Shown: piece by piece, positions 3,201-43,134 of the stretch
How positions within the stretch are numbered: position 1 is the stretch's first letter
Layout: the number at the start of each line of letters is the position of its first letter
IMG/VR virus record: IMGVR_UViG_3300048672_000863
Coordinates: 1 to 50,213 of that record
Strand: one strand, 5' to 3'
DNA: 50,213 nucleotides
Source of the DNA: a virus
Notes under the pieces: generated by a model
Told to the model about the DNA's origin: nothing
Database searches by the model: none
The model's input: only the letters and a program-made list of their open reading frames with translations
Position numbers and translations under genes: made by a program

Positions 3201-3623
3201 AATTACCTATCAAACGGTGTGTGGCGTGTTGGCGTAAATACTGTCACGTATCTTGGTGCACGAGCAAGTGATGGATACGCCTTCAGTCAGTACGGTTTTG
3301 AGTTAGCACCAGGAGGTACTCCTGTACTAAAAACAGACAGCAGTGGACGTCTCGATCAATCTGGTACCGACGAAAGCGCATCACCTGGTGCCAGCACCAT
3401 CAATAAGCCAACGGGGAAATCAGCGATTTGGAGTGGTGATTCCAGCGTAACCATTACGAATTCACTTGTGTCGACTAGTTCCCGTGTGTTGGTTACCTTC
3501 CATGCTGATCACGGTGCAGCGAGATGGTGGGTAGATGTTGGCAGTGGTTCTTTCACTGTCACACTATCGGCGGCAGCGACAGCAGATGCAGCCTTCAGTT
3601 GGCAGGTAAGCAACATCATATAA
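252..3623 (+). CDS. Tailspike/tail fibre with pectate-lyase-like beta-helix
   Basis: A 1123-residue receptor-binding protein, probably on the virion tail. Residues ~25-420 look like a right-handed beta-helix of the pectate lyase 3 type: VKDHGAIGDG and DDTAAINAAI near the start, FFPAGRYKV, then many short N-rich rungs such as VSDNTI and ISGNTI. Residues ~515-625 resemble an Ig/FN3-like module (GTYYYRVAAANAQG, later EYKVYG) also seen in the capsid protein at 41033. The C-terminal ~70 residues match the domain at 1-246. The helix may bind or cleave a surface polysaccharide, but no catalytic residues can be assigned by reading. There is no clear Shine-Dalgarno sequence before ATG 252, 5 nt after the preceding stop, so translational coupling is likely. 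Confidence 0.85.
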   Translation: MNFPLISTFQNIDGTPIGGGGGISAAVSVKDHGAIGDGIADDTAAINAAIAAASATNASRHIFFPAGRYKVATTTPAADYDWLFLIPSNFTVSGEGLGSVILWTSDCRGGSQIHPSEPSHMCFKCNDGTKNVVFQDLCFVGQNGTGGVGFTYEQNPQSAAIYCFGLGTTDITVKNCVFDNFWGFTVHMDMGPRGRVLDCTTRYCCNGINCNTAFGEMRGNLLFHSEGFECAASAMIVSDNTIQDALGSAVAIGGTYGPPGSNLFIETPGSQVVNNTITGCTNIGIVATDGFVNGIISGNTIRECEGGGILVSPDPGDNVVRGCIISDNTITNCCKSGNPNVWGIFLGGSGKHSCIGNRIFNEDAINWSLQIPIIVQSVDCYVSGNYLNGTNMDLYVGYVGTNTYVGENFFANQKAQFEAGSTRSPIRRYGATDSEVIETSSLSYGPGQPGLFKFYRLADGTLQWDAARGGGPDITLGRTGPHRLRTPDSFEAAIGVTTPLLLGGTTASALSTPAAPTFATSPTGGIITPGTYYYRVAAANAQGTSLASAEASVVVPGGSSTNTINVMFGLVYGATEYKVYGRSTGAEQLLATVSAQAPLIWGPVDLGLGWTDNGSVTPSGALPTINTTGNLTVDNTLITNLIAAPTLLQISASGSEIARVGPGVGICGMLNSYYSFYVPANTLNGYAAGSTLRLTTELGDGASSVAAQMNTTTAWTTTGAKLWSWKNNSVEKAALMHDGQFYGYTFNASNPMLDTSGTYVASLYRNGLYFKTAAAYGNSRADIISSGSGVPLDLMSDACLGATDAGVRIGTHITYASTAAGAKLAAFGCGLFGYGWDEKAHITRNGGSYWSDILEVGGGSGATYMDSTVVLTMNTTSKTWLFNAYNSGSHVMSLSRTGRFSINSPIPLSGATVAMRTAPSANETTLRVEGLNGQSQNLQSWVKNSDTTPVEVAYIAPDGSLGVTQYIYWPTSSGNTWQMEAGPNYLSNGVWRVGVNTVTYLGARASDGYAFSQYGFELAPGGTPVLKTDSSGRLDQSGTDESASPGASTINKPTGKSAIWSGDSSVTITNSLVSTSSRVLVTFHADHGAARWWVDVGSGSFTVTLSAAATADAAFSWQVSNII

Positions 3624-3632
3624 GTCAATTAG

Positions 3633-3641
3633 TGTTATAAT
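3633..3641 (+). promoter_or_regulatory. Extended -10 promoter of the second tail fibre gene
   Basis: TG at 3633-3634, one base, then TATAAT at 3636-3641. Transcription would begin near 3648, giving a leader of about 85 nt before ATG 3733. No good -35 box is visible, as is usual for extended -10 promoters. Confidence 0.5.
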
Positions 3642-3667
3642 TACAGCATATAGTGTTTTGAGGGAAT

Positions 3668-3720
3668 AGTGAACTCAAGACGCGACCAATGAAGTCTATT
3701 GTCGAGTCTTAGTTCTCACT
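3668..3720 (+). promoter_or_regulatory. 5' leader stem-loop before the tail fibre gene
   Basis: AGTGAACTCAAGAC at 3668-3681 can pair with GTCTTAGTTCTCACT at 3706-3720, with a two-base bulge, enclosing a ~24-nt loop. The 3' arm ends just before the ribosome-binding site (TTGGAGAA, 3721-3728) of ATG 3733. It could regulate translation or stabilise the message. The pairing is visible in the sequence; the role is inferred. Confidence 0.4.
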
Positions 3721-3732
3721 TTGGAGAATAAT

Positions 3733-5940
3733 ATGGCCGACAATGGTTTTAAAATTAACAAGAGTATCAACCTTAATCCTCAGGCTGGGGCACCCGCCAA
3801 TCCAGTAGATGGCGACTTTTACTACGATTCAACTGCTCAGTCTTTTGCCTATTATCACAATGGCTCTTGGGCTAACTTTGACTCAGTAGGCTCAGTTTCG
3901 GCTGCCTTGTGGCTCACAAGTGCTCAATTCACACCAGACATTGTTCGAAACTCAGTTATTAAGGTCACCGGAGGCATAGTGACATCGCACCTTGCTGGTA
4001 TCTCTTCTAGCTTCAGCGCAAAAAGAATCACTGTTTACAATGACGGTGTAGCTACCATCGTTGTTGAGCCTCAGGACACGAACGAACCGACTTCCAATAA
4101 CCGAATTGTTACGCCCACCGGCGGCAGTATGAATCTCGTTGCTGGTGAGGTTGCTGTCTTCACGTACGATATTGCAGCAAATCGTTGGCTGTTGGTCTCT
4201 ATCTCATCTAATGCTGGAGCTCAACTCATCGCCACGACAACCAATCCTGGTCTTGTAACGCTACACCAAGCATCACTATATCCCCTTGATGGCGTTGTTC
4301 TCTCTGATGGTGACTTAAATGCTCCAAACGGTGTTGTGGGATTAAACGCAAATCGCGCAGCTTCAATTGCCGCACCTCTAGCAGCAGTAACGGCACTAAC
4401 AGTAACGGCAAATGGTACGTCTAATGCCGTTGATCTGTATGGTCACCTTGCTATGAAAACGAACACGTCATATATAAAGTTATATGGTGGCGGACTTATA
4501 GCTGGAATTAATGGTTTTATTCAACTGACAACGCCAGGTACTGGTCTAGGCGCTGGCACGCTTTCAAACTTTACCGACGGCTCCGGCGGCGCCGGCTTCA
4601 ACATGAGTGTGCTTCGAATTGAAGAAGGTGCCAGTGGCGGAACACTGGAAATTGCTGTCCACGAGACTCGAAATACAATCAGCGATCCAACAAATGGTGC
4701 TCCTATTGATATTGGACCGAGTGAAGATTGGCGCTTTAACTCAGATGGGAGTTTTTCAAAGCGAAACACGGCAGCGCAGATTCACAATGTTGCAGATCCC
4801 ACAGCAGCTCAAGATGTAGCTACAATGCAATGGGCTGGCGATCGTCTTGGCTATCGCAATCTCTGCATCAACGGAAACATGCGCATTTGGCAGCGCGGAA
4901 CATCTGCCATCACCTTAACAAAAAACACAATCGGCTATTCGGCTCGGCAATATCTCGCAGATCGTTTTTATGGCTTTGTTCGTTTAGACAGCGCCGGTAG
5001 CATCAGTATGACCTATGAAAGAGTAAATACTTTTCTCACAAATACTGATTACGCTTCACGCATAAAATTTACTGCCACAACTGGTGGTGGTGGCTTTATT
5101 TGTCTAGCCCAAGACATTGATCGAGAATTCGTAAAATTGATTCGCGGAAAAAAGGTTACTCTTTCCTTTAAGTGGGCAAAAGGTTCAACGATGGGTGATC
5201 GAGGACTCATTGAATTTATGTACAGTACTGGCGATTGGTTTAAAAACATAACCAATTACAGCGGTGCTGCAATTCTTTCTACAGAATTTGTTAGCAATGC
5301 CAACATTCCGTCCTCATTAGGAGCATCACGCACACACGTGACAAGCGCAGTAGTTCCAACAAATGCCACTACGTTAGCTTTTTATATCGGTATGGAGGTG
5401 TCTGGTACCTATGACCCTGATCCTGATAACTACTTAGATATTACCGACGTAGTTCTTACAGTCGGCGACAACGCAAATCAAGCACCATACTATCAGTACC
5501 CGTACGCGGGCGGTGACTTTGCAGGCGAAGTAGATCTATGTCAGCGCTACTATGAAACAAGTGCTGATATGTTTGGTAATCCGCCTGGAACGACTGGTGC
5601 GGCTTACGGTACAACAACATTAGCATATGATTGGAATACTCTTGCTGGAGCTGAAAAACGTTACGCAATCTTTAATTTTCAAACTAGAAAACATATTAGT
5701 CCAGATGCGCTTGGACTTACCTATCAAACTGGTGGCCATGGACAAGGATATAGTTCCTGGGTTGGAACTACGACCAGTAGCGTGTATGACGAGTATGCCG
5801 GCTCTACGCTTACTGTCGATGCTACTTACTCTACCTGTTCAGAAAAGCAAATGATGTTAAGTGCTACTAGCCCCGGTGCACTTGCCCATCCAACAAATCA
5901 CTTAATTGTTGCAGTTTGGGCCGTCGACGTAGATTTCTAA
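3733..5940 (+). CDS. Tail fibre protein
   Basis: 735 residues from ATG 3733, preceded by TTGGAGAATAAT. A TTG at 3721 is also in frame, but it lies inside the ribosome-binding site. The middle of the protein (from residue ~375) has NLCINGNMRIWQRG followed by ADRFYGF, and near residue 600 VDLCQRYYE. These three elements are typical of phage tail fibre and carbohydrate-binding C-terminal regions. The N-terminus (FKINKSINLNPQAG, then DGDFYYDST) resembles shaft-type repeats. Its stop codon overlaps the stop of the converging minus-strand gene (TAA 5938-5940 against TAG 5937-5939). It is probably a second receptor-binding or side fibre acting with the spike upstream. Confidence 0.8.
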   Translation: MADNGFKINKSINLNPQAGAPANPVDGDFYYDSTAQSFAYYHNGSWANFDSVGSVSAALWLTSAQFTPDIVRNSVIKVTGGIVTSHLAGISSSFSAKRITVYNDGVATIVVEPQDTNEPTSNNRIVTPTGGSMNLVAGEVAVFTYDIAANRWLLVSISSNAGAQLIATTTNPGLVTLHQASLYPLDGVVLSDGDLNAPNGVVGLNANRAASIAAPLAAVTALTVTANGTSNAVDLYGHLAMKTNTSYIKLYGGGLIAGINGFIQLTTPGTGLGAGTLSNFTDGSGGAGFNMSVLRIEEGASGGTLEIAVHETRNTISDPTNGAPIDIGPSEDWRFNSDGSFSKRNTAAQIHNVADPTAAQDVATMQWAGDRLGYRNLCINGNMRIWQRGTSAITLTKNTIGYSARQYLADRFYGFVRLDSAGSISMTYERVNTFLTNTDYASRIKFTATTGGGGFICLAQDIDREFVKLIRGKKVTLSFKWAKGSTMGDRGLIEFMYSTGDWFKNITNYSGAAILSTEFVSNANIPSSLGASRTHVTSAVVPTNATTLAFYIGMEVSGTYDPDPDNYLDITDVVLTVGDNANQAPYYQYPYAGGDFAGEVDLCQRYYETSADMFGNPPGTTGAAYGTTTLAYDWNTLAGAEKRYAIFNFQTRKHISPDALGLTYQTGGHGQGYSSWVGTTTSSVYDEYAGSTLTVDATYSTCSEKQMMLSATSPGALAHPTNHLIVAVWAVDVDF

Positions 5941-6314
5941 ATATCTTCTATAGCGCTCTGAAAGAAAGCAGAAGAGGCATCAAAGACTAACACTTCTTCA
6001 CAGTTGTTAGCCTGTACGAAGTGCTTCGACCATCGAATCTCGATGGTGAGATTACCGTCTTCACTCAATTCAGCAAAATTAACAGAGCAGTTGCGATCTA
6101 AGTTTGACAGTTGGACATTTAATCGACTAAGGGCCAGATGAGCAAAGGCGGGGTACCCCATGCCGTCTAGCTTCTTGGTCTTCTCATACTCAGTAAAGAA
6201 CTCAGCGACCCACTTAGCGATTGTCTTCTGCTGCGAGACTTGCTGAGACAGTTGCTTTTTCTTAGCAATCTTAGCCTCAATCTCCTTCATCATGTCTCGC
6301 TTGACATTAGACAT
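5937..6314 (-). CDS. Hypothetical protein at the end of the primase operon
   Basis: 125 residues with no family that I recognise. The N-terminal ~35 residues are Lys/Gln-rich and probably helical (IEAKIAKKKQ, then LSQQVSQQ); the rest is a mixed fold ending in an acidic segment. The start at 6314 overlaps the 3' end of the primase gene by 8 nt, so it is the last gene of the minus-strand operon helicase-primase. It may serve replication or simply share the transcript. Its stop overlaps the stop of the converging tail fibre gene. Confidence 0.7.
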   Translation of the reverse strand: MSNVKRDMMKEIEAKIAKKKQLSQQVSQQKTIAKWVAEFFTEYEKTKKLDGMGYPAFAHLALSRLNVQLSNLDRNCSVNFAELSEDGNLTIEIRWSKHFVQANNCEEVLVFDASSAFFQSAIEDI

Positions 6315-7185
6315 TTTGGATTCTCTGCATGTTGTCTAAAAACCGCTTAGCAAGTGCTTCATGACCTTCGTTCTTGAGAACATCATTCCAGTCTTGTTCA
6401 TCATCTAATGTCGACGAAAAATGAGTAAGACAGTTAGCCTTTACGGCTTTTGCGAGACCTTCTTGGCCTGGAGCATCCGCATCGTAAGCACCGATAACCT
6501 TTATATTTTGATTGACCAATTCCTGAAGAACTTCTTGATGGTGCCTTGTAACATTGCACCCAGAAGTACAGATGAACTTCCAAGGGTTATTAGCTACACC
6601 ACCATACTTGATGTTGAACGCTTGTTGAAGGCCTAACGCGTTGAAGTACCCTTCACAGACCCCAACAGCCTTGATGTTGGTGACAAACGGTCCTTGATTC
6701 CACAGACCAAACAACATTCCTAGGCGAGTACCAGGAAGCGTATCGATCTTCTGCTCGTCTCCGTCCTTGTTGATTCTCGTTTTTAGGAAACGAATTTGAG
6801 CTCCGCAAAAATGATCTTGAAAATAATATGGGAACACGATACCTTCGCGTTCCATGTCGTAATACATATCTCCGTCAAGATTTAGACCTCTACTCTTGAC
6901 GTAATCAACGCCCTTTTGCGCACGAGGGTCTGAGAGAGGAATGAACTTAACCGGCCACTTCATTACTTGCAACTCGTTTGGAGTAGCTTCCTTGAAGTCA
7001 AAGTCCCCCTTGAGAAATTCTGGTAGAGAGATCTCGCCTAGGTGGCAGTACTGACGAAGTGAATATCCGCGCTGGCAGACACCCTTGCAGTAGACCCAAA
7101 TATCGCCTGTTTCAGCATCCTTGTGCCAATAAAGCGTATCGTTTGGCCGCTTGCAGATTAAGCACTTCTTGGTTGAAAAGCTCAT
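6307..7185 (-). CDS. DNA primase (zinc finger plus TOPRIM)
   Basis: 292 residues that would make RNA primers for lagging-strand synthesis. The N-terminus has a zinc-binding pattern, C8-x2-C11-x21-C33-x3-C37. The second half carries the TOPRIM signature: a conserved acidic residue in VCEGYFNA and the DxD motif in GAYDADAPG. The length is close to that of small phage primases in which the helicase is a separate protein. Its ATG overlaps the TGA of the upstream helicase gene (ATGA, 7182-7185), so the two are translationally coupled, which suits a helicase-primase pair such as T4 gp41/gp61. No fused helicase domain is present. Confidence 0.85.
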   Translation of the reverse strand: MSFSTKKCLICKRPNDTLYWHKDAETGDIWVYCKGVCQRGYSLRQYCHLGEISLPEFLKGDFDFKEATPNELQVMKWPVKFIPLSDPRAQKGVDYVKSRGLNLDGDMYYDMEREGIVFPYYFQDHFCGAQIRFLKTRINKDGDEQKIDTLPGTRLGMLFGLWNQGPFVTNIKAVGVCEGYFNALGLQQAFNIKYGGVANNPWKFICTSGCNVTRHHQEVLQELVNQNIKVIGAYDADAPGQEGLAKAVKANCLTHFSSTLDDEQDWNDVLKNEGHEALAKRFLDNMQRIQNV

Positions 7186-8240
7186 AGCTTTTGTCCCGCC
7201 TTATAGTCTGCGCCAGACAACTGGTCATTTTCTTTTGACTTTTCCATGAATTCTTCAAGGTCTTTTTCGGCCTTTGCTCGAACCATACTGGCCTTTCGTG
7301 TAGCTAGTTCCTGTTCAGACAGCTCTTCTAAGAACTTGCCCTTGTAATAGGGACATGTAATCTTCCATCCTTGGTTGCCAAAGCGGTCCTTGTGAATTAG
7401 GAAGTCTGATGTCTTCTCTTCGACATTAGGAACCACCTCTACAATTACAGTGGCCGGCTCGACCACCGCACTACACTCCTTAATGCGCGCATCGATGTCC
7501 TTGACGCCGCCCTTCTTACCGAGTGAGTACAGCTGAACGAACATGCAGACCGGAATCTCGCACTTCTTGATGTACCGGCCGAGCCAGATACGAAAATCGT
7601 TTAGGACGTCATAGCGACTGCGCGTTTTGTCATTGACAGAATCCTTGATAAGCTGATAATAGTCAATGAGAACAGCAGAGAACCCCTGGCCAATAATCTT
7701 GTCGAGTGCGGCCTGAACCCACTCGATCTTGGTCGTGCCACCCTCTCGCCACGAGACATCCAATACCTTCACGTACTGCGCAATACTGCGGCAGAGATGA
7801 ACGCACTGGCTAATCTGCTCGGGCGGCATCCGCCCCTTCTTGTATTCATTAAAGTCATACTCTAACTCAAGCGCCGCGATTCTAAATAAGACGTCTTGTT
7901 CGGGCTCTTCATTCGAGATGACTAGAATCTTCTTCTTCTGTTTCCACAGTGGCCACGAGATGTTTGCAGCCACTGTAGACTTACCATTACCAGAGAGTGC
8001 ACAAAACAGATAGAGATTCTCTCTCGTGAAAGGAATGGCGGCAGACAGACTCTCGTTGATGAGAGTGATTTGCTCGCTAACCATCTTCTTGTAGCTAGCG
8101 ACACTCTGAACTATCTTTAACATCGACTCTTGATCACCAAAAGAGGTAATCTCGTCGAGGGAAATGTCAACCTTTGGTGCTACTCTTACTCCAGCTTTAG
8201 CTAGATTGTGCTCTTGTTCTTCTTTAGTTAGAATCGCCAC
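7182..8240 (-). CDS. Replicative DNA helicase, DnaB/RecA-fold
   Basis: 352 residues. The ATPase core shows a P-loop (ALSGNGKST, about residues 82-90), a following strand with ILVISNEEPEQD, and a Walker B-like stretch AVLIDYYQLIKD. These are the DnaB/gp41/T7 gp4 family signatures for a hexameric 5'-3' helicase that unwinds the fork and recruits primase. It is shorter than cellular DnaB (~470 residues) and lacks an obvious N-terminal DnaB domain. It lies between an unrecognised gene (17-nt overlap) and the primase (4-nt overlap). The C-terminal tail is Lys/Glu-rich and probably helical. Confidence 0.8.
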   Translation of the reverse strand: MAILTKEEQEHNLAKAGVRVAPKVDISLDEITSFGDQESMLKIVQSVASYKKMVSEQITLINESLSAAIPFTRENLYLFCALSGNGKSTVAANISWPLWKQKKKILVISNEEPEQDVLFRIAALELEYDFNEYKKGRMPPEQISQCVHLCRSIAQYVKVLDVSWREGGTTKIEWVQAALDKIIGQGFSAVLIDYYQLIKDSVNDKTRSRYDVLNDFRIWLGRYIKKCEIPVCMFVQLYSLGKKGGVKDIDARIKECSAVVEPATVIVEVVPNVEEKTSDFLIHKDRFGNQGWKITCPYYKGKFLEELSEQELATRKASMVRAKAEKDLEEFMEKSKENDQLSGADYKAGQKL

Positions 8241-8766
8241 TCGTGCCCTTCCCTAAGATGCTATCGATCTCGTCCATTGGATTGTAATTGGCGGCAGCAA
8301 GAGCTGCGGCTCGACGTCGTTGAATCTCTTCTACGGTGAGACGGGGAAAAGAATCTGCGTGTTCGCGTTGCATCTTGTATTCTTTTGCCGTCATACTTCC
8401 AAATAGGGGAGGCTCATCATCCTCCTCTTTCTTCTTGGTTGGAATAGGAAAAATGTTAAAAAAGGCTATTTTAGCCCGCTCTTCAATATCATTCGTCCAC
8501 TGTTCCTCGAACTCGCGCTCGCTTGAGTACTGGAACTTTGGACTACCCTTCAACTTCTTGAACATAGTCTTTACTAAAGACGGACTCGGGGCATGAGCTC
8601 TTACAGCTTTAGGTAAATACTCATAAGCATTCTCGAGAACCAGCCCTTCGTTCTTGAGAATATCGAAGAGTTCTTCAAAGTTACCTTGAACAGATGGAGT
8701 TCGCCTGTCGCGACCGGCCAGTGTAGCTTTCCACTGTTCGAATAACAGATCGTATCTAGAAGCCAT
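8224..8766 (-). CDS. Hypothetical protein, first gene of the helicase-primase operon
   Basis: 180 residues, unrecognised, mostly helical and charged, with a KKKEEDDEP stretch near residue 110. A ribosome-binding site AAAGGAAG (read on the minus strand) precedes ATG 8766 by about 10 nt. Its 3' end overlaps the helicase gene by 17 nt. Position suggests a helicase loader or accessory factor, as T4 gp59 is for gp41, but no sequence similarity supports that. Confidence 0.65.
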   Translation of the reverse strand: MASRYDLLFEQWKATLAGRDRRTPSVQGNFEELFDILKNEGLVLENAYEYLPKAVRAHAPSPSLVKTMFKKLKGSPKFQYSSEREFEEQWTNDIEERAKIAFFNIFPIPTKKKEEDDEPPLFGSMTAKEYKMQREHADSFPRLTVEEIQRRRAAALAAANYNPMDEIDSILGKGTSGDSN

Positions 8767-12591: not shown

Positions 12592-12783
12592 ATGGACGTT
12601 TTTGTAGCTACTTTTGAGGATCGTAGTGGTTGTGCATCAGTTGAGATCTTTAAGACTCGTAAAGAAGCTAATACCTTTCTTAGGACAATCTTTAAGCACT
12701 GTTATCCGAATGGAGATGTTTCTTTTAAAGAGTGGCAGACTTATGGTGGTTTCACTTGTAGAGTTTGGAAGAGGAAAATTTAA
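12592..12783 (+). CDS. Small hypothetical protein
   Basis: 63 residues, unrecognised, with a beta-alpha-beta look (VFVATFEDRS, then a helix KEANTFLRTIF). It starts 1 nt after the methyltransferase stop, with GAGAGGATAAT as ribosome-binding site, and its TAA overlaps the ATG of groEL (TAATG, 12781-12785). It is therefore part of the methyltransferase-groEL transcript. Confidence 0.6.
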   Translation: MDVFVATFEDRSGCASVEIFKTRKEANTFLRTIFKHCYPNGDVSFKEWQTYGGFTCRVWKRKI

Positions 12784-14501
12784 TGCTATACGAAAAGCAG
12801 AAGGCTAAAGAGATTACGACTGACAAGGCTGAGATTAAGCACATTGTGCAGTCGGCCTTAAGTGAAATGGCAGCTATTGTAGGTTCAACGCTTGGACCTG
12901 GTGGTCGAACTGTTCTGATGGAGCGAGATAACCTTGCCCCGTTAGCAACAAAGGATGGTGTTACTGTAGCTAAGGCTGTTGGTATGGCAAATGCTCAGGC
13001 CTCTGTTGTTGTAGAGGCTGCGAAAGAGATCTGTCTACGTACTGCTAAGGAAGCTGGCGATGGCACGACGACAGCGATTGTTCTTGCCAATGCACTTGTG
13101 CAGAACGCATCTGACTTTCTGGAAGTCAATCCCAAATACAACCCACAGCGAATGATTAATGATCTTAATCATCTTTACGAGGGGGTTATCGTCCCCTTCT
13201 TAAAGAAACACGCCAAGTCGGTGAAATCCAGGGAGGAATTGATTAATGTCGCAACCATTAGTGCAAATGGAGATGCCACTATCGCTGAGGCAGCGGTTGA
13301 TGCAGTTATGGCAGCGGGAGAAGACGGGCAAGTATTGGTGGAAGAAGCTGATGATTCAACTATTCGAGTTGAATCGTTGGAAGGGTGTATTGTTACATCA
13401 GGACTTAAGGACCTGGGGCCGATCGGCATATCTTTTATCAATGACCGTGCCAATCAGCAAGCAAAGATGGATGAAGGGCTGGTTTTTCTCTTCGATGGGT
13501 CTCTCAACGACCTTAAAGTTCCTGCAGCTATCCAGCAAGCTATCGAAGGAACCAATCTATACGGCAAGCCTATTATCGTATTTGCGCACCACTTTGCCGA
13601 TGTCGTCTTGGATAAATTTGCAAAAACAACGAAGGGCGGATACACTGTAATTCCGGTTAAGACTCCAATGGGTGGAGTCGCTAACTCAAGAGTGATGTTC
13701 TTGCATGATATGGCGGCTTATACTAGTGCTACTGTCTATGACCCCGCTAACTTAGACGCGGCCATCGAGGCGGGCCTGGAATTTGGGGCCTTTAAGACTG
13801 CGAAGATCAATCTCTACGAGACGTTCCTTACTGCCGAGTCTGATCCTGATGCTCTCGAGGCTCGTATCAATGAACTCAAGAGTATTGCTGCTATCGCGCC
13901 TAACGAGCGTGAGAAGATGTTCGTAAAGGCTGCTATTTCTAAGCTTACTGGCGGTGTTTCGACTATCTGGGTGGGTGGTGGATCGGAACTAGAAGCCCGG
14001 GAGAAGAAGGCCCGTGTAGAGGATGCCGTTGAGGCCGTTCGTTCTGCTATTGCTGAAGGGATCATCCCAGGAGGCTGCGGGGTACATCTCGTCCTCGCCG
14101 ATATTCTTCGTAGACACCCGGATCGTCTCCCTTCTTGGATCATCATGGAGCAAGCGCTCATGGAGCCCTTTAAGTTACTGCTTTCCAATTGTGGTGAGGA
14201 CTTCAACGACGTTTGGAACGCCTTAGGTGGTTTCATTACTGGTGCGGACCATCCCCCTAATCAGATCTTTGATGCGAATACTCATCGGTTGGTGCAACCG
14301 GAAGAAAAGGGCATCATTGAGCCTGCTAAGGTGTGCCGCGTGAGCATTGGAAATGCTCTATCGGTTGCCTCAATTCTGAGTACGCTCGGCGGGTTGGTGG
14401 TCTCACCTAGAGATGCTGGCCTTGAGCAGCAATTGGCTCTCTCTAAGAGCACGTTTAGAGAGATGATGTCGGAGTCAACTGGCACAGTGGGGCAAGAGTA
14501 A
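12783..14501 (+). CDS. groEL: Phage GroEL-like chaperonin (Hsp60)
   Basis: 572 residues from ATG 12783, which overlaps the previous stop and has GGAAGAGG upstream; a TTG at 12765 is also in frame. The chaperonin signatures are present: GSTLGPGGRTV and DGVTVAKAV near the N-terminus, GDGTTTAIVLANAL (the ATP-hydrolysis region), VEDAVEAVRSA with the conserved Asp, and late EPAKVCRVSIGNA. Length matches bacterial GroEL (~548), but the Gly-Gly-Met-rich tail is absent. It would form a ring folding phage proteins, perhaps the capsid protein. No GroES-like co-chaperonin is visible in the window, so it may use the host's or act alone, as some phage chaperonins do. The next gene starts at its last base (TAATG). 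Confidence 0.93.
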   Translation: MLYEKQKAKEITTDKAEIKHIVQSALSEMAAIVGSTLGPGGRTVLMERDNLAPLATKDGVTVAKAVGMANAQASVVVEAAKEICLRTAKEAGDGTTTAIVLANALVQNASDFLEVNPKYNPQRMINDLNHLYEGVIVPFLKKHAKSVKSREELINVATISANGDATIAEAAVDAVMAAGEDGQVLVEEADDSTIRVESLEGCIVTSGLKDLGPIGISFINDRANQQAKMDEGLVFLFDGSLNDLKVPAAIQQAIEGTNLYGKPIIVFAHHFADVVLDKFAKTTKGGYTVIPVKTPMGGVANSRVMFLHDMAAYTSATVYDPANLDAAIEAGLEFGAFKTAKINLYETFLTAESDPDALEARINELKSIAAIAPNEREKMFVKAAISKLTGGVSTIWVGGGSELEAREKKARVEDAVEAVRSAIAEGIIPGGCGVHLVLADILRRHPDRLPSWIIMEQALMEPFKLLLSNCGEDFNDVWNALGGFITGADHPPNQIFDANTHRLVQPEEKGIIEPAKVCRVSIGNALSVASILSTLGGLVVSPRDAGLEQQLALSKSTFREMMSESTGTVGQE

Positions 14502-34327: not shown

Positions 34328-34488
34328 TGATCTCTTGCGAGCTGTGGAGTATCAACCGTATCTTGCGCTTCACGGGCTTTCGTCTCTATATACAAGTAGA
34401 CGGAAAGCGCGGAGAAGCGTGGAATCCAGAGAAGCCGACGCGAATCGGTCTTGCTTGGTACGGCTGGAAGTTCTTAACGGGTAAGTAG
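34327..34488 (+). CDS. Small basic hypothetical protein
   Basis: 53 residues from ATG 34327 (overlapping the portal TAA) to TAG 34486-34488. It is Trp/Arg-rich (CELWSINRILRFTGFRLYI, then AWNPEKPTRIG) and may bind nucleic acid or membrane. Its 3' end overlaps the converging GMP reductase-like gene by 15 nt. Coding status rests on the coupled start and uninterrupted frame. Confidence 0.5.
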   Translation: MISCELWSINRILRFTGFRLYIQVDGKRGEAWNPEKPTRIGLAWYGWKFLTGK

Positions 34489-35544
34489 GTGTGGCTTGCT
34501 TTCGGCCATGCCGTTACCGGTGATGGTGACATATTCGGCCCGAACGCGCAATTCTCTTAAAGAATGCACACCAGAGTAACTCAATCCAGAGCGGATACCG
34601 CCAACTAGTTGGTCAACGGTATCTTTAACGGGACCCTTCAGCCTGACGAAGGTAGATTCGCCTTCGGGTGTGTAAGATGAGTCAGTCTCAGCAACAGAGT
34701 TACGGGCTGCTCGACTGGCCATTCCTCGGTACTCTTTTGCCCAATAGTATTTACCTTGCTCATTTGTGAGTTGAACGGGCTTCCCGGGTGACTCCTTGGT
34801 TCCCGCAAAAAGAGAACCAATCATTACCATGTCAGCACCGAACGCTAGAGCCTTTACGCAGTCACCGGCATTACGAATGCCACCGTCGGCGATAATAGAG
34901 ATATCGTAAGTAAGTGTTAGGTCTGCAACATCTTCAATAGCTGAAAGTTGAGGAACTCCATGTCCAGTCACAATGCGTGTCGTGCAGAGAGAACCAGGTC
35001 CAATACCAACCTTAATGACCTTAGCACCAGCGTCTGCTAGTCGCTTTGCTCCGTGGCGTGTAGCAACATTGCCCGCGATAACATCTAGACCTTCTTTGGT
35101 GAGTCGCTTAACCATGTCGACCATGTGTTGACTATCACCGTGCGCAATATCGACATTGATTGCTAACACGCCCTCTTCGGCATACTTCATTGCGTTGTCA
35201 AAGTCTTCGGGCTTGATTCCAATAGAAGGAATAGCAAGGCTTTTTGCGTCATGTACTTCCTTGATCCACTGTAGGACAGTTTCATGTGTAGCGTATCGAT
35301 GTAGGATGCCAAGTCCGCCGAGCTCGAACATTTTGTTTGCCATGGCGGCTTCAGTCACTGTGTCCATGTTGGCGGAACAAATAGGAACTGGGAATGGGAC
35401 CCCAAAAAGGGAAGTCGAAATATCAACTTGCTTGCGCGATGCAATATCTGAAAACCGTGGTACAAGAAGAACATCATCAAACGTCAAAGCATTAGATTTG
35501 ATTAGATTGGGCATGAGGGGATTGTACCCATCGGAATTCTTCAT
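34474..35544 (-). CDS. IMP dehydrogenase/GMP reductase family, CBS-less, GMP reductase-like
   Basis: 356 residues. The (beta/alpha)8 family signatures are clear: [10 protein letters not shown] (21-30), the catalytic loop [11 protein letters not shown] with C187, and [12 protein letters not shown] (218-229). The ~120-residue CBS pair of typical IMP dehydrogenase is absent, and the Arg-Tyr flap dyad is not seen. The end ([29 protein letters not shown]) resembles GMP reductase, and 356 residues is its size. GMP reductase turns GMP into IMP; either way it shifts purine pools for phage DNA. It lies on the opposite strand to the head genes and is flanked by converging and diverging neighbours, suggesting separate regulation or later acquisition. 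Confidence 0.85.
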
Positions 35545-37214: not shown

Positions 37215-37611
37215 AATGGACCCTCGCTGTCCGCGTAGCCTTGAGACGACGCCGGACAGCTTTTGTCCGTTGGCTGTGATGCGCTTACGCGCTATTCGGA
37301 CAGCGGGTAAGGAATTGTCTGAGGAAGAAGAGAACAACCTACCTGGTTGTCCTTGGGCCGTCAATAGCCAGACGGCGAATTACTGCTTCTTCAAGTACAT
37401 TGACGAGCTGGCTTCTGAACAGACTCTATCTGATGTTGAAGTGGCTGCTCTTAATTGTCTCTCTGTCGAGACCGTAAAGAAGATCGAAAAAGAGGCTATG
37501 GCTAAGATTAAAAATCGAGATGAGTTTGCCAATCTGAGGAATGACCTCGATGGCGAGTCTATCTTTGAAGATGGTGGCAGCGCGGACGGCGAGTTTGAGA
37601 TTGGGAACTAA
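37198..37611 (+). CDS. Cys-rich protein with sigma region 4-like end
   Basis: 137 residues. Four cysteines in evenly spaced pairs, C11-x11-C23 and C51-x11-C63 (the first three followed by Pro), suggest a metal or Fe-S site. The region after them, TLSDVEVAALNCLSVETVKKIEKEAMAKIK (read as two pieces: the LSDVEVAAL helix and SVETVKKIEKEAMAKI), resembles the region 4 helix-turn-helix of sigma factors. It may be a phage transcription regulator. The last 4 nt overlap the minus-strand protease stop. Confidence 0.65.
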   Translation: MTKKTEMDPRCPRSLETTPDSFCPLAVMRLRAIRTAGKELSEEEENNLPGCPWAVNSQTANYCFFKYIDELASEQTLSDVEVAALNCLSVETVKKIEKEAMAKIKNRDEFANLRNDLDGESIFEDGGSADGEFEIGN

Positions 37612-38903
37612 CCTCTATTAGGACTACCGTATGTAGTCCTAAGGTGGTTCCACTTCTTGTTATGGTGATCCCAGGACCAGTGATGTAGTTCTTGCTGATC
37701 CACTTGGCGTCGACCATACTCGCTTGTGTTTTTCTTCTTGTATCCGTAGCTGTTTGTCACAATCTTTCCGGTTGTGGTTGCTCCCTGCCCGTGGAAATTC
37801 CCAGGTAGTGCCGGCGGAAGGTGGCCCTTAGTTCCTGTGCCCATCGTGGGACGAGGGTCTTTGCCTGCTGCCTTCAGTCTAACAAACTCATCGACCTTGG
37901 CCTGTTCCTCAGGGGTATTCTTCTTTGACTTCTGAAGACTAAAGAACTTCTCAAGCTTTGCCATAGAGAATGCCTTTCCGCATCCAGGTTCACGACACTT
38001 CACTTGATACTTCCCGTACACTTGTTCTTTACCGCAGTGGTCGCAGGTGATGAATGAGAGATTTTTGGGGCCGAGTTCTTGTGATTCGCTCTGAAGGACT
38101 GATCCACCAGTCATTGCACCAGGTGCTCCCGCGCCGCCGTAACCGGCAGTGAGTGCTTTTTCTACCAATTGATGGATCTGATGGACATTCTCAGCAATCT
38201 TACTTTCTAGCGATGCTTCGATTAGAGCCTTCTTGAGATCTACGAGTTGCTCGTCGTTGCCAACGATACTGAAGATTTTATTGAGGTTGTTTTCAATCTT
38301 TTCGGCAGAAGCGTCTCGCGCGATATGTCGGAAAGAGGGAACATTCGTCTCAGCGAGATGAAGCACAGACTTAATTAGGATCATGTCGGCCTCTGCGTCT
38401 GTTTCGCTCTTGTCTAAGTTCAGCGGCTCGACCAGCGTTGCTTGATTGGCTGGCACGAAGGTAAGAGCCACAGAGTGAATTTTTGTGCGGGCTAGTAACG
38501 CTGGATCACTAATTCCTCGAGAAACGACGCCGCCTTCAACTGATGCCTTTACTTTTAAGGGGCAGTCCGTCTTGTGGATGTTGCGTAAGATGGCTGCTGC
38601 TGCCTTAGCGTTGGGGTGATCTTCGTCATTAAAAAGTACGGCTTTAACGTAGACATATGGACTTTTAACTTTTTCCCAGTAATAGCGCTGACGGTCATCT
38701 TCACAATCTTCTGCTTTGAAGATTCTTTTAGCGGTTGTTACTTTTCCTAAACAGTTAAAAAAGCCTTTGCCATGGTTGTCGTTAATGCGACCTTTGCCAT
38801 TTTCTAGTTCAGAGATGTCGGCTCCTTCTACGTTTAGCATTTCGCCTTGCGTGTCCCTAAGCTGAGATCCTGCACACATGTCTATTTCAAGAGGTTTTGC
38901 CAT
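37608..38903 (-). CDS. Prohead protease (T4 gp21-like) with extra C-terminal domains
   Basis: 431 residues on the minus strand. The N-terminal ~165 residues match prohead proteases of the gp21/S78 type: a His in NDNHGKG (H44), the Ser in VKASVEGG (S121), and HSVALTFVPANQAT after it. It would cleave scaffold and capsid N-termini. Unusually it continues for another ~265 residues: a helical part, then AGYGGAG (253-259) and VLQSES (269-274) that copy the capsid protein N-terminus, a four-Cys zinc finger (C287, C290, C303, C308), and a basic Gly/Asn/His-rich tail. T4 gp21 is only ~212 residues. The start has TATAAT 7 nt upstream, so the mRNA is probably leaderless. Confidence 0.85.
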   Translation of the reverse strand: MAKPLEIDMCAGSQLRDTQGEMLNVEGADISELENGKGRINDNHGKGFFNCLGKVTTAKRIFKAEDCEDDRQRYYWEKVKSPYVYVKAVLFNDEDHPNAKAAAAILRNIHKTDCPLKVKASVEGGVVSRGISDPALLARTKIHSVALTFVPANQATLVEPLNLDKSETDAEADMILIKSVLHLAETNVPSFRHIARDASAEKIENNLNKIFSIVGNDEQLVDLKKALIEASLESKIAENVHQIHQLVEKALTAGYGGAGAPGAMTGGSVLQSESQELGPKNLSFITCDHCGKEQVYGKYQVKCREPGCGKAFSMAKLEKFFSLQKSKKNTPEEQAKVDEFVRLKAAGKDPRPTMGTGTKGHLPPALPGNFHGQGATTTGKIVTNSYGYKKKNTSEYGRRQVDQQELHHWSWDHHNKKWNHLRTTYGSPNRG

Positions 38904-38910
38904 AGTTTAG

Positions 38911-38919
38911 ATTATAGCA
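38911..38919 (-). promoter_or_regulatory. Extended -10 promoter, leaderless protease gene (minus strand)
   Basis: Read on the minus strand: TG, one base, TATAAT (38916 down to 38911), 7 nt, ATG 38903. It is the minus-strand copy of the layout found at many plus-strand genes. Confidence 0.55.
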
Positions 38920-38948
38920 TGAGAGTGGCTTCGATGTAGTTGGCTGCT

Positions 38949-39728
38949 TTACGTAAAAGTTCCGTGGTTGCTCTTTCGTTGATTCTCTTCTCGGGTGAGT
39001 ATTTGAAGATTCCAAGGAACGTGTAGGCCAGTGCTTGCTTCACCGTGAAGCGGTTCAATGTGATCGACTTCATGCTTGATTCCGGTTTCTTTTGTAAGTT
39101 GTCTCGCTCGCTTATAGAATTGGTTTATTTGAGATTTAAACTCTTTACTGTTTCTGATCCATTTGGGGGAATGTTTTGTGTACAGAGCCTGGTGTCTTTC
39201 AAGTACTTTGACAGCATGAACGGCGTTTTGCGAAAAAGAGTTCCATTCTAAGTTTTCTAGTTGATTGTTGGTTTTGTTCCCATCTATGTGATTAACTACT
39301 TCTAAATTAAGTGGATTGGGGATAAAGGCTTGTGCGATCAACCTATGACAATAAAGGTGTTTTTCTTTACCTTGCTTATCTGTTAACTGGATCACAAAGT
39401 ATCCTAGTCGAGCATTTAGATAAGGAGTTTTAAGGCGCCAACCGTTAAATATGGCCCTAAAGCGTCCTTGTGTCGAAACTTGATATCTATTCTCGTAACC
39501 AACTATATCTTGCCATTTTTCATCTTTTAGATCAACCCAAGTATCTTGACTAAGTTGCTGTTTTAACTTTAATTGTTCAATTTTACGCAACCTAGTTTTT
39601 TCCTTTTTTCTTTGTAACGCTGGATACATACATAATTTACACCACCCGTTCACTCCGTCGGGTCTACTTTTATTAGAGTGGAATTCTTTAAGGTGTTTTT
39701 GGGTTTCGCATTTAGGGCAGTATTTCAT
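38949..39728 (-). CDS. Composite HNH homing endonuclease with NUMOD4
   Basis: 259 residues on the minus strand. An N-terminal zinc module (YCPKCETQKHLKEFHSN, then NGWCKLC) looks like the front of endonuclease VII-type genes. Next is a NUMOD4 DNA-binding motif (EKWQDIVGYENRYQVS), then an HNH core (HRLIAQAFIPNP, VVNHIDGNKTNN, LENLEW). Near the end a second HNH-like segment (HEVDHIEPLHGEA, VPWNLQILTREENQRKSN) appears, as in the HNH of other phage nucleases. Such genes are mobile: they cut an allele lacking them and copy themselves in. It has its own promoter and lies antisense between protease and head genes, so it is probably an insertion. Confidence 0.88.
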   Translation of the reverse strand: MKYCPKCETQKHLKEFHSNKSRPDGVNGWCKLCMYPALQRKKEKTRLRKIEQLKLKQQLSQDTWVDLKDEKWQDIVGYENRYQVSTQGRFRAIFNGWRLKTPYLNARLGYFVIQLTDKQGKEKHLYCHRLIAQAFIPNPLNLEVVNHIDGNKTNNQLENLEWNSFSQNAVHAVKVLERHQALYTKHSPKWIRNSKEFKSQINQFYKRARQLTKETGIKHEVDHIEPLHGEASTGLHVPWNLQILTREENQRKSNHGTFT

Positions 39729-39747
39729 AAAACCTCTTTATTAGAGA

Positions 39748-39753
39748 ATTATA
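39748..39753 (-). promoter_or_regulatory. -10 box of the homing endonuclease gene (minus strand)
   Basis: TATAAT on the minus strand (39753 down to 39748). The leader of ~13 nt holds AAAGAGG before ATG 39728. The endonuclease thus has a private promoter, as homing genes often do. Confidence 0.5.
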
Positions 39754-39833
39754 TAGGCTGCTCAGGTTAAACAGTGTGATAGGGTAACTGTTAGTAAAGG
39801 CTTTTACGCAATTTTTTTAAGGAGAATAATCAC

Positions 39834-40241
39834 ATGGCATCTACTTCTGCTGTAGCCCAGCTAATGGCTAAGATTGAGCGCAATGCGCGTCAACTAGGCC
39901 TAACTGTGCTCTCAAATTCCGGTTCAGCTGTTGTTATTGATAACGGCTCAAACGATCTCACTGTTTCATATGTAGCACCCACGATCACTGCGCCTATGGG
40001 CGGGGTTGATCCTGCTAACTCACCGTACCTAGGTGTGGGCGTTGTGCAGCCTGGCTCGCTTAAGCTAAAGTCATCTTCGACTGCGGCTGACGCTATCTCG
40101 GACGTTCTTGACAGCCTTGTTGCTGCTAAGGTACTTCACATGCTAGGTGGTTTCGCGAACGACGTTCTCCTAGAGAACAGCGATGCGACGTACACTGCGA
40201 CTCTGCGTGGCACTGTCGACCTACTTGGTATGGGCCAGTAA
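39834..40241 (+). CDS. Hypothetical head-region protein
   Basis: 135 residues, Ser/Ala/Gly-rich and beta-rich (LTVLSNSGSAVVIDNGSNDL, VGVVQPGSLKL), unrecognised. Strong ribosome-binding site TAAGGAG. It comes immediately before the scaffold and major capsid genes, so a capsid decoration or head-completion role is likely, by position only. Confidence 0.65.
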   Translation: MASTSAVAQLMAKIERNARQLGLTVLSNSGSAVVIDNGSNDLTVSYVAPTITAPMGGVDPANSPYLGVGVVQPGSLKLKSSSTAADAISDVLDSLVAAKVLHMLGGFANDVLLENSDATYTATLRGTVDLLGMGQ

Positions 40242-40269
40242 TTAGTGAGTTAACTAAGGAGCACAAACT

Positions 40270-41016
40270 ATGAAAGAGGAACTCAAAAAGAGCCTCACTG
40301 ACCTGATTGATGAGACACTACTCGAGCTCGAGGAGCTTAAGAAGTCTCGTTTTTCAGCCGCCGAAGTGGACCTAAAGGGTCCGGGTGCAGATCACCTAGC
40401 TGGCAAGCCCGTTAACGGCAAGCTTGGCGCTGAGAAGGCTGAGGACAAGAAGGACGAGGAAGAGGACGAGAAGGACGAGGATAAGGCGGAAAAGGGCGAA
40501 GGCGTCAATTCCGCGGCCGACATGGGCAAGGGCGAAGGCGTTAACTCCGCTGCTGACGTGGGTAAGGCTGAAGATAAGAAGGACGACGATAAGGATGAGG
40601 ACGAGAAGGAGCCTCACAAGGATGACTCTAAGCATGAAGAGAAGGAGAAGGACATCGCAAAGAAGCTTCTCGATATGCACAAGGGTGAGATGAAGAAGTC
40701 TCTAGAAGAGGCTGACTCACTCATGAAGAGCTATGTTGACCAGAAGGTCAATGCGCTCGAGAGCAAACTAGCAACTATCCTAGAGACGGTAACCAAGTTG
40801 GCCGATGCACCGGTTCCTGCGAAGGGTATTGACTACAAGGGTGCGACTCCGCTGCTGAAGTCGGCAGATGATAGCGAACCTCTATCGAAGTCTGAAGTAG
40901 CTTCAAAGCTGTTTGATTTGAAGAAGTCTGGCTCGCGCGTTGACAGCAATGACATCGCAATGGCTGAGATGGGACACGATCTGGATAAGATTGTTTCGAA
41001 ATATGGCATCAAGTAA
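40270..41016 (+). CDS. Scaffold/prohead core-like protein
   Basis: 248 residues, very rich in Lys, Asp and Glu, with no hydrophobic core in the middle (~55-125). Terminal parts are helical (ELKKSLTDLIDETLLELEELKK; LMKSYVDQKVNALESKLATIL). It lies between the protease block and the capsid gene, the usual place for a scaffold. The acidic low-complexity centre has a 12-residue tandem repeat (40492-40563). Strong ribosome-binding site AAGGAG. The end (DKIVSKYGIK) may contact the capsid protein. Confidence 0.8.
   Translation: MKEELKKSLTDLIDETLLELEELKKSRFSAAEVDLKGPGADHLAGKPVNGKLGAEKAEDKKDEEEDEKDEDKAEKGEGVNSAADMGKGEGVNSAADVGKAEDKKDDDKDEDEKEPHKDDSKHEEKEKDIAKKLLDMHKGEMKKSLEEADSLMKSYVDQKVNALESKLATILETVTKLADAPVPAKGIDYKGATPLLKSADDSEPLSKSEVASKLFDLKKSGSRVDSNDIAMAEMGHDLDKIVSKYGIK
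40492..40563 (+). repeat. Tandem repeat, 2 x 36 bp, in the scaffold gene
   Basis: Two in-frame copies (40492-40527 and 40528-40563) encode KGEGVNSAAD-M/V-G. The DNA copies differ mostly at third codon positions, so the protein sequence has been kept. Confidence 0.85.
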
Positions 41017-41032
41017 TTTTTAAGGAGATAAT

Positions 41033-42481
41033 ATGAACGACACAGTTAATCAAGTATTACAGGGTCTCGAGTCCGGTCTCGTGTCAGCGGCTGAAATCGA
41101 GGCACTAAACAAGGCAATTAGCGCAGGCTACGGCGGCGCTGGTAAGCCTACAGACCTCACCTACGGTGGTGTTCTGCAGGCTGAGTCACTCGAGACGACT
41201 CTAAAGAGCGTCACGTTTGACATGAAGAACCTCAAGATGTGGCCGGCAGTCAGCGTTGACAAGGCATACAACTTGTTCGAGCAGTACAATCGTCTAATCG
41301 CGTACGGTAGCGATTCGGCGCCTTACATCGGCGAAGGTGGCGCTCCTCAAGAGGAAGATTCCACTTACGTACGTGACGGGCAGAAGATCGTGTTCTTCGG
41401 CACGCGGCGTCGGGTTAGCCACCAGATGACTCTAGTTCGGGTCACTGTTGGTGATATCGTTGCGCAGCAGGCCAAGGAAGGTACTATGCACCTTCTGAAG
41501 AACGTCGAGCGCGAGCTATACTGGGGTCATGCACACTTCCAGAATCAGACCACTGGCGCTATGAATGGTTCTGACGCGGATCTGCCCTCAAGCTCGATCG
41601 CGATGAGCGGTCTTCTGAAGCAGCTCCTAAAGGGCGACACTGATGCACAGATGATCTCTGGCGACTTCAACGGCTATGGTACGACCAGCTCAATCGGTCA
41701 GGACCTTGCTGGTGCGGTTATGGCACAGGACGACGTCGAGGCCCTAGCGGTTATCGCTCTCGAGAACTTCGGTTCACCTAGCGAGCTACATGCCGAGCCT
41801 GCCGTTATCTCAGCGTTCGTCAAGCAGTTCTATCCTCAGTTCCGTTCAGCTCCCGGTCTTGCTTCACAGACTGTTGGCTACGACGTTTCTAAGATTCAGA
41901 CCACTGCTGGTGCGATCGATCTGAAGCCTAACCTGTTCCTCCGTCCTCGCACTGGCGTTCGCGCTATCGCGAGCGGCGCGTCAGCTCCTGCAAGCACCTT
42001 CACGGTGACTGCAACGGCGACTGGCTCAGGTTCAACTTTTGCGGCTGGTAACTACAACGTGAAGGTCACTGCGGTTAACGACTCAGGCGAGTCCGCTCCC
42101 GTTGCCTCTGCTCTTGTGTCTGGTCTAACTCTTGGCCAGAACATCCAGTGCGCGATCGGCAGCGTTCCTGCTGGCGTCAAGTCCTGGAAGGTTTACATCT
42201 CCGCTCCGGGTGGGGCTGCTGGCACCGAGAAGTTCGCAGGTAACTGGGCGAACACGGGCGCTGGTAACTACATCTGCGCAGGTGCGAAGCTCCCTGGCCT
42301 AGGCGAGGCGTTCCTACTCGACATGAGCGCTGAGAACATGCGCTTCAAGCAGCTAGCTCCTCTCTCGAAGATCAACTTCGCGATTGTGACGACTGCGCTC
42401 GAGTTCGCGATTGTGCTCTACGGTGCACTCTTCGTGTACACTCCCCGCTTCAACTGCTTCTTCAAGAACGCAGGCAAGTAA
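41033..42481 (+). CDS. Major capsid protein with an Ig/FN3-like domain
   Basis: 482 residues, following the scaffold gene and ending at a strong terminator. The N-terminal ~50 residues include AGYGGAG (31-37) and VLQAES (47-52), probably a delta region removed by the protease. The core (~55-310) has features of HK97-fold capsid proteins: VSHQMTLVRVTVGD, MHLLKNVERELYWGHA, then LHAEPAVISAFVKQFYPQFRS. At ~315-410 is an inserted beta-sandwich (AGNYNVKVTAVNDSGESAP, then WKVYISAPGG), after which the capsid fold resumes (LSKINFAIVTTALEF, VLYGALFVYTPRF). The assignment rests on position, size and motif pattern; codon use is strongly biased, as in a highly expressed gene. Confidence 0.88.
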   Translation: MNDTVNQVLQGLESGLVSAAEIEALNKAISAGYGGAGKPTDLTYGGVLQAESLETTLKSVTFDMKNLKMWPAVSVDKAYNLFEQYNRLIAYGSDSAPYIGEGGAPQEEDSTYVRDGQKIVFFGTRRRVSHQMTLVRVTVGDIVAQQAKEGTMHLLKNVERELYWGHAHFQNQTTGAMNGSDADLPSSSIAMSGLLKQLLKGDTDAQMISGDFNGYGTTSSIGQDLAGAVMAQDDVEALAVIALENFGSPSELHAEPAVISAFVKQFYPQFRSAPGLASQTVGYDVSKIQTTAGAIDLKPNLFLRPRTGVRAIASGASAPASTFTVTATATGSGSTFAAGNYNVKVTAVNDSGESAPVASALVSGLTLGQNIQCAIGSVPAGVKSWKVYISAPGGAAGTEKFAGNWANTGAGNYICAGAKLPGLGEAFLLDMSAENMRFKQLAPLSKINFAIVTTALEFAIVLYGALFVYTPRFNCFFKNAGK

Positions 42482-42553: not shown

Positions 42554-42697
42554 ATGGCATTGGAACACCTGCCGGAAGGTAGCGTTTATCAGATTCTTAG
42601 GTTTTTTCGCATACTGATTATGCTCAGGCTTTTTAGAAGGGAATATGTTGGTCCTTTTTCCAGACGAACGGCTCAGACAAGTATCCGCATCAGTTGA
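42554..42697 (+). CDS. Possible leaderless small protein overlapping deformylase
   Basis: 47 residues (MALEHLPEGSVYQILRFFRI at its start), basic and hydrophobic. Its start fits the TATAAT box exactly, but it overlaps the deformylase gene by 53 nt in another frame. It may be a leader peptide coupling translation into deformylase, or be non-functional. Confidence 0.35.
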   Translation: MALEHLPEGSVYQILRFFRILIMLRLFRREYVGPFSRRTAQTSIRIS

Positions 42698-43070
42698 TCC
42701 CTCTGTTGTTGTGGCTCCAATTCTTGAAGATATGTTCAAGGTGATGTACGAGCATAAGGGAGTAGGTCTTTCGGCCATCCAGATCGGCATTCCACTCCGA
42801 ATAGTAGTTGCTGATGTCGGGGCTGGACGTGAAGTCTACATCAACCCAAAGATAGAGCGCCTCGGCGGCACTAAAGAACTCATGAAGGAAGGCTGTCTCT
42901 CATTTCCTGGCGTCTGGGAGGATGTCTCGCGATCTAGGAAAATAACAATTTCATATCGATCCTCCGATGGAATCGACTTAACATTAAATACGAGTGGACT
43001 TCGGGCTCAAGTGTTGCAGCACGAGATTGAGCACCTTGATGGAATTCTTTTAAGTGATAAGGCCCCTTAG
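42645..43070 (+). CDS. def: Peptide deformylase
   Basis: 141 residues. All three metal/catalytic motifs are intact: GVGLSAIQIG (39-48), EGCLS with the metal Cys84 (82-86), and QHEIEH with H126, E127, H130 (125-130). It removes the formyl group from new proteins. It lacks the longer C-terminal helix of cellular enzymes, as other phage deformylases do. AGAAGGGAAT precedes ATG 42645. The gene ends inside the tRNA acceptor stem (TAG 43068-43070). With tRNA, PTH2 and GroEL in the same genome, it suggests help for rapid protein synthesis late in infection. Confidence 0.93.
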   Translation: MLVLFPDERLRQVSASVDPSVVVAPILEDMFKVMYEHKGVGLSAIQIGIPLRIVVADVGAGREVYINPKIERLGGTKELMKEGCLSFPGVWEDVSRSRKITISYRSSDGIDLTLNTSGLRAQVLQHEIEHLDGILLSDKAP

Positions 43071-43134
43071 CTCAGTGGCAGAGCGTTTCGGTTGCTCACC
43101 GAAGAGGTCAAGGGTTCAATCCCCTTAGGGGTCG
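43061..43134 (+). tRNA. tRNA with GCU (Ser) anticodon, atypical class I form
   Basis: Cloverleaf visible: acceptor stem GGCCCCT (43061-43067) with AGGGGTC (43127-43133), D arm GCTC/GAGC, T arm AAGGG-TTCAATC-CCCTT, discriminator G 43134 and no encoded CCA. The anticodon arm is TTCGG-TTGCTCA-CCGAA (43087-43103), anticodon GCT at 43094-43096, for Ser codons AGC/AGU. A T-G pair (43086/43104) adds a sixth pair to the stem. The variable loop is short, whereas bacterial tRNA-Ser has a long arm, and position 37 is C rather than a purine. It overlaps the end of the deformylase gene by 10 nt. Confidence 0.85.

Follow-up and report, generated by a model that had tools for sequence, protein, structure and literature searches.

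A co-evolving copy of the capsid N-terminal arm in the prohead protease of SPO1-like phages: a candidate signal for entry into the prohead

A few dozen molecules of the maturation protease have to find their way into each prohead. In a stretch of viral DNA of 50,213 nucleotides (IMG/VR record IMGVR_UViG_3300048672_000863, hereafter the window), the sequence itself offers a candidate for the signal that targets them: past its catalytic domain, the prohead protease carries a copy of the N-terminal arm of the major capsid protein. The features concerned are the following, an arrow marking a bond predicted to be cut.

37608..38903, minus strand: prohead (head maturation) protease, 431 aa, assigned by phrog_1028, AlphaFold fold and H44/S121
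38424..38903, minus strand: catalytic domain, about residues 1-160, a conserved block in two alignments
38367..38411, minus strand: K165↓S166 and K178↓S179, a pair of putative sites of self-cleavage just past the catalytic domain, from a hydrophobic-x-K-S signature conserved in the alignment
38052..38159, minus strand: protease residues K249-F284, the copy of the capsid N-arm, whose first bond, K249↓A250, is a putative site of self-cleavage, from sequence comparison
37929..38054, minus strand: Zn-ribbon-like tail after the arm copy (C287, C290, C303, C308), from Cys conservation and weak Pfam matches
40270..41016, plus strand: probable scaffold, 248 aa, acidic and Lys-rich with 7 K-S sites, assigned by its K-S enrichment and its place directly before the capsid gene, as in SPO1
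41033..42481, plus strand: major capsid protein, 482 aa, assigned by phrog_752 and PDB 9vel
41033..41113, plus strand: capsid residues 1-27, predicted to be a propeptide that is removed by a cut after K27, by homology to the mature N-termini of A511 and 812
41111..41218, plus strand: N-terminal arm of the capsid (K27-F62), from which the shared block derives, from sequence comparison

The phage of the window is a distant relative of SPO1. Its capsid protein matches phrog_752 along its length (E=4e-51), as an SPO1-like major capsid protein does, and also matches SPO1 gp6.1 (PDB 9vel; E=9e-56), its named relatives being SPO1-like Herelleviridae, Bacteroides phage DAC16 and Myxococcus phage Mx1; the AlphaFold model of this capsid is too poor for use (pLDDT 44). 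The probable scaffold found no family match in the profile search. In SPO1 the gene order is portal, protease, scaffold and capsid. In the window the protease and an adjoining HNH/NUMOD4 endonuclease gene (37608-39728, minus strand) lie on the strand opposite to the capsid, an inversion common to the close relatives L004-L008, and in farther relatives protease and capsid are co-stranded. An IMP dehydrogenase/GMP reductase-type gene (34474-35544, minus strand; E=1.6e-102) lies between portal and protease, a peptide deformylase gene (42645-43070; E=3e-39) directly 3′ of the capsid is followed by tRNA-Ser(GCT) (43061-43134), and the phage also encodes a GroEL-like chaperonin (12765-14501; Cpn60_TCP1, E=2.4e-40).

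Residues 16-158 of the protease match the phrog_1028 head maturation protease profile (E=7e-12). By its conserved H44 and S121, both invariant in the protease alignments, the protein appears to be a herpes-like serine protease, and the best PDB match for its AlphaFold model is the KSHV herpesvirus protease, although the match is weak (E=3.8e-3, prob 0.97). The model as a whole is modest (pLDDT 57); the catalytic domain is beta-rich, with pLDDT mostly 65-85 and loops near 45, and the arm copy is predicted to be disordered (pLDDT about 30). Beyond the arm copy, the four tail cysteines are invariant in 14 relatives, and weak matches to Zn-ribbon or DUF5817 Pfam families occur among relatives. The window protease and that of L005 have in addition about 100 C-terminal residues past the Zn-ribbon (37608-37929), which the other aligned relatives lack.

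The likeness between the two proteins is confirmed as both real and general. The original prediction had placed AGYGGAG followed by VLQ[S/A]ES in protease residues 253-274 and capsid residues 31-52, with the same gap and a K-A-[L/I] stretch ahead of both copies, and each of these elements was verified: AGYGGAG occupies protease residues 253-259 and capsid residues 31-37, VLQSES protease residues 269-274 and VLQAES capsid residues 47-52, the spacer is nine residues in both, and the Lys of the preceding K-A-[L/I] is invariant in both proteins among 59 relatives. The similarity extends over 40 ungapped residues with a local score of 99 (1000 shuffles: mean 37, SD 5, maximum 64), and the whole capsid, used as query against the 50 kb record, matched only itself and the C-terminal region of the protease (38052-38171, E=6.8e-7). 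Alignment of 59 window-group pairs showed the motif to be kept in protease and capsid alike. The similarity has a sharp edge there, with nothing shared upstream of P3, an invariant K at P1 and A at P1′ in at least 98%, and the likeness fades after about P26′.

The spread of the copy was followed in 90 IMG/VR loci and in named phages, with whole-record scans of 8 IMG/VR records and 9 named phages. Past the catalytic domain, nearly all group proteases recovered from the 90 loci have the sequence K-A-[LMI]-x-A-G-Y-G-G ... V-[LI]-Q-x-E; it usually lies some 70-80 residues before the C-terminus, and a four-Cys Zn-ribbon-like tail comes after it. About 60 window-group proteases, from at least 50 distinct relatives, and those of 13 or more named phages have the copy. 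It resembles the phage's own capsid in SPO1, A511, 812, LysYB2, Exig132, Bobb, Semele, Goe26, EF24C, a Twort-like phage, Eldridge, Mx1 and Thermus phage Cumys, where the protease reads TAGDPHALDPKSGLTGVPAIRRESLE and its own capsid TAGDPHALDFKAGLSGVPAIRLESLE; weak copies occur in AVP, Mecenats66 and Lb338. An own-capsid arm copy after the catalytic domain was found in SPO1-type (phrog_1028) proteases, among them those of SPO1, A511, 812, LysYB2, Goe26 and the window. PHROG profiles gave independent evidence: the protease profile picks up the SPO1 capsid arm (E=5e-8), and the capsid profile picks up the proteases of A511 (E=1.2e-7) and 812 (E=4.4e-6). Exactly two copies were counted per genome in 17/17 whole records, and at the sensitivity used no extra copy was found in other structural genes by whole-record scans that included DAC16 and MA9V-3. 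These two Bacteroidota phages have the copy in the capsid only, their proteases being without it. Local alignment detected no copy between T4 gp21 and gp23 or gp24, and for HK97 gp4 against gp5 the local score was at chance level (z=1.9). No earlier mention of the arm copy was found among the papers covered by a full-text literature search.

The two copies have evolved together. In cross-lineage comparisons, the protease and capsid of the same phage were more alike than swapped pairs in 75/75 cases and more alike than the orthologues in 73/75. With whole protease tails, where the limits of the motif were not chosen, the observed own-capsid sum was reached by 0/50,000 permutations; several proteases score slightly higher with the capsid of a close relative than with their own. 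An old duplication left untouched would bring the own capsid no closer than others, and a preference for the own pair was seen instead. At the identical residues with a synonymous choice, the same codon was used in 104 of 237, and 103.8 are expected from codon usage. This agreement at chance level rules out gene conversion and indicates that protein-level selection keeps the protease and capsid copies alike.

The position of the cut can be predicted from homologues. According to its record annotation, the mature A511 capsid begins at residue 24 (cut after residue 23), and the mature capsid chain of 812 (PDB 9row) begins at S25, directly past K24; both N-termini align with the K↓A bond that opens the shared block. 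When the 812 protease was searched against the PDB, the capsid was the only significant match, and the alignment with the mature chain opens at protease S165, directly past K164. Scaffolds provide a second signature: K-S is enriched 2.65-fold in them (115 vs 43.6 expected), an enrichment absent from capsid bodies and portals, and a hydrophobic P3 accompanies 96/114 scaffold K-S sites (34.8 expected) against 116/380 other lysines (116.5 expected). K-A is not enriched in scaffolds (1.10-fold), so that Ala at P1′ is supported by the capsid and protease sites alone. Together, the mature N-termini of homologues and the scaffold signature predict cleavage at hydrophobic-x-K↓S/A, which in the window would fall at K27↓A28 of the capsid and at K249↓A250 of the protease, where a putative consensus self-cleavage site is thus present C-terminal to the catalytic domain.

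This prediction departs from the original one, in which LQ[A/S]E might be the shared cleavage site, with a cut after Glu in the T4 manner. T4 and giant-phage proteases do cut after Glu (PMC9026906), but the counterpart of VLQxE, GALRxE, is retained inside the mature A511 and 812 capsids, which start at a Lys-Ser/Ala bond; the cut therefore does not fall at LQ[A/S]E. Moreover, the L/I-x-E spacing is absent from LQxE, and scaffolds are enriched in K↓S, not in x-E. By homology, then, mature N-termini follow Lys and neither L/I-x-E nor A-x-E describes these sites; cleavage after Glu is refuted on these grounds and retains next to no plausibility. What stands of the earlier interpretation is shared processing and capsid-like docking, which taken together are the best reading of the block.

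The question that follows is why the likeness runs so far beyond the cut. It is possible, although unlikely, that the 26-residue block is simply a long recognition sequence on the P′ side, shared since both proteins are cut there; the block does open exactly at the scissile bond, and an enzyme and its substrate are expected to co-evolve. However, about three residues suffice for the proteases of T4 and of giant phages (PMC9026906, PMC10052503), and no arm block was found in scaffolds (the highest scores being AVP, z=2.7, and Exig132, z=2.3). As scaffolds are full of hydrophobic-x-K↓S and yet lack the block, marking a cut is not all that the block does, and because it is equal within each lineage beyond the 3-4 residues of the cut site, a function beyond cleavage must hold the 25 downstream residues. 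A built-in pseudo-substrate, occupying the active site until assembly and so delaying proteolysis, has a smaller chance still of being that function. Such self-inhibition would agree with a copy at the position of a cut site and, in SPO1, A511 and 812, directly past the catalytic domain, but hundreds of residues separate the two in many relatives, the copy is disordered in the AlphaFold model of the protease, and the truncated SPN3US protease is simply active (PMC7411985).

Strongly disfavoured, and barely credible as an account of the present state, is a functionless relic of a protease-capsid fusion or of a partial duplication. A trace of such an origin may exist, as phrog_617 (annotated 'major head protein', 626 columns) matches the protease catalytic domain of SPO1 (L002) and 812 (L095) as far as roughly the cut site. 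This hints that protease and capsid are fused in some other phages and that the arm copy might have come from such a fusion. A relic is expected to diverge, whereas the paralogues within a phage are closer than the orthologues between phages and their codons are randomised.

A shared binding partner, either the capsid lattice or the scaffold, is the simplest candidate for what keeps the block alike. The docking reading, which is favoured here as the probable one, is that the protease is docked in the prohead through its arm copy, much as the capsid docks through its own arm, and is freed by a self-cut at K249↓A250. During prohead assembly the imitated arm would bind the partner of the capsid arm, whether this is scaffold or the inside of the capsid lattice, and protease molecules would enter the shell by this binding, in limited number. 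The active protease would then cut hydrophobic-x-Lys↓Ser/Ala bonds: many of them in the scaffold, K27↓A28 in the capsid and, within its own chain, K249↓A250. This last cut would release the catalytic domain from the docked tail, leaving the Zn-ribbon tail with an N-terminus of the mature-capsid kind. We infer docking and self-cleavage, what becomes of the tail, and scaffold cleavage by this protease from sequence comparison: the arm copy and its co-evolution are what suggest that the tail is needed for entry into the prohead, and homologues are what place the cut. DAC16 and MA9V-3, which must load proteases that have no arm copy, count against the docking model, as do the weak copies of AVP and Mecenats66 and the proteases that score slightly higher with a close relative's capsid.

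The closest precedents are the C-terminal targeting propeptide of SPN3US gp245 and the protease-scaffold of herpesviruses. The SPN3US protease cleaves itself and so loses a C-terminal propeptide of 64 residues; a truncated form, although active, was not found in proheads (PMC10052503, PMC7411985). The parallel with this Salmonella giant phage, and with phiKZ gp175, is functional: gp245 cuts after A-x-E, whereas the window type is predicted to cut after K, and the cited sources do not describe the propeptide as a capsid-arm copy. In herpesviruses the protease enters the capsid as part of a scaffold fusion and is freed by two self-cleavages (PMC12474303). Thus HSV-1 UL26/UL26.5 resembles the window type in that the protease is carried in by a C-terminal part common to another assembly protein, and its fold appears related (the weak KSHV match); the shared part in herpesviruses, however, is scaffold from an overlapping gene, whereas in the window type it is the arm of the capsid, encoded a second time and co-evolving with the original. 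The C-terminal fifth of the HK97 protease gp4 reportedly holds a capsid-targeting signal (Duda, Oh and Hendrix 2013). A capsid copy is undetectable in gp4, unlike in SPO1-like proteases. In T4, a short capsid targeting sequence directs internal proteins into the prohead and is cut by the protease, the autocleavage of gp21 is described as a major gap, and the gp21 propeptides have been suggested to target it (PMC9026906). T4 also differs in cutting at L/I-x-E and in having no gp23 or gp24 copy in gp21, whereas SPO1-like proteases carry the capsid copy.

The stretch between catalytic domain and arm varies among relatives from nothing to more than 600 residues. A GNAT-like insert lies in the L004 protease (2354-4462), a lytic-transglycosylase-like (SLT-like) one in the L015 protease (757-2409), and HEAT repeats precede the arm in the proteases of L065 (5744-8554) and L083 (5195-8065). 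LRV repeats follow it in the L040 protease (5760-8744), and in the Mx1 protease about 950 residues with a weak kinase-like match do so; the proteases at L080:4997-8026 and L001:2300-6019 also have large, unrelated inserted domains beside the arm copy. Putative K↓S/A sites flank the insert on both sides. The inserts look like exchangeable cargo, which suggests that the protease may also carry cargo into the head. More speculatively, and with rather less chance of being right than docking itself, the protease could be a cargo carrier that impersonates the capsid, its tail staying in the mature shell via the N-arm and its variable domains being delivered to the head and perhaps to the host. Peptides of the prohead protease have been detected in virions of fRuSau02 (PMC5618024) and CKA15 (PMC12282133).

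The candidate signal occurs in phages that infect Bacillus, Listeria, Staphylococcus, Enterococcus, Thermus and Myxococcus. It comes with a predicted hydrophobic-x-K↓S/A cleavage consensus. SPO1 and its host B. subtilis offer a system in which the question of protease entry is directly testable. If the role of the arm were confirmed, it would be a natural tag with which to load proteins into SPO1-like heads.
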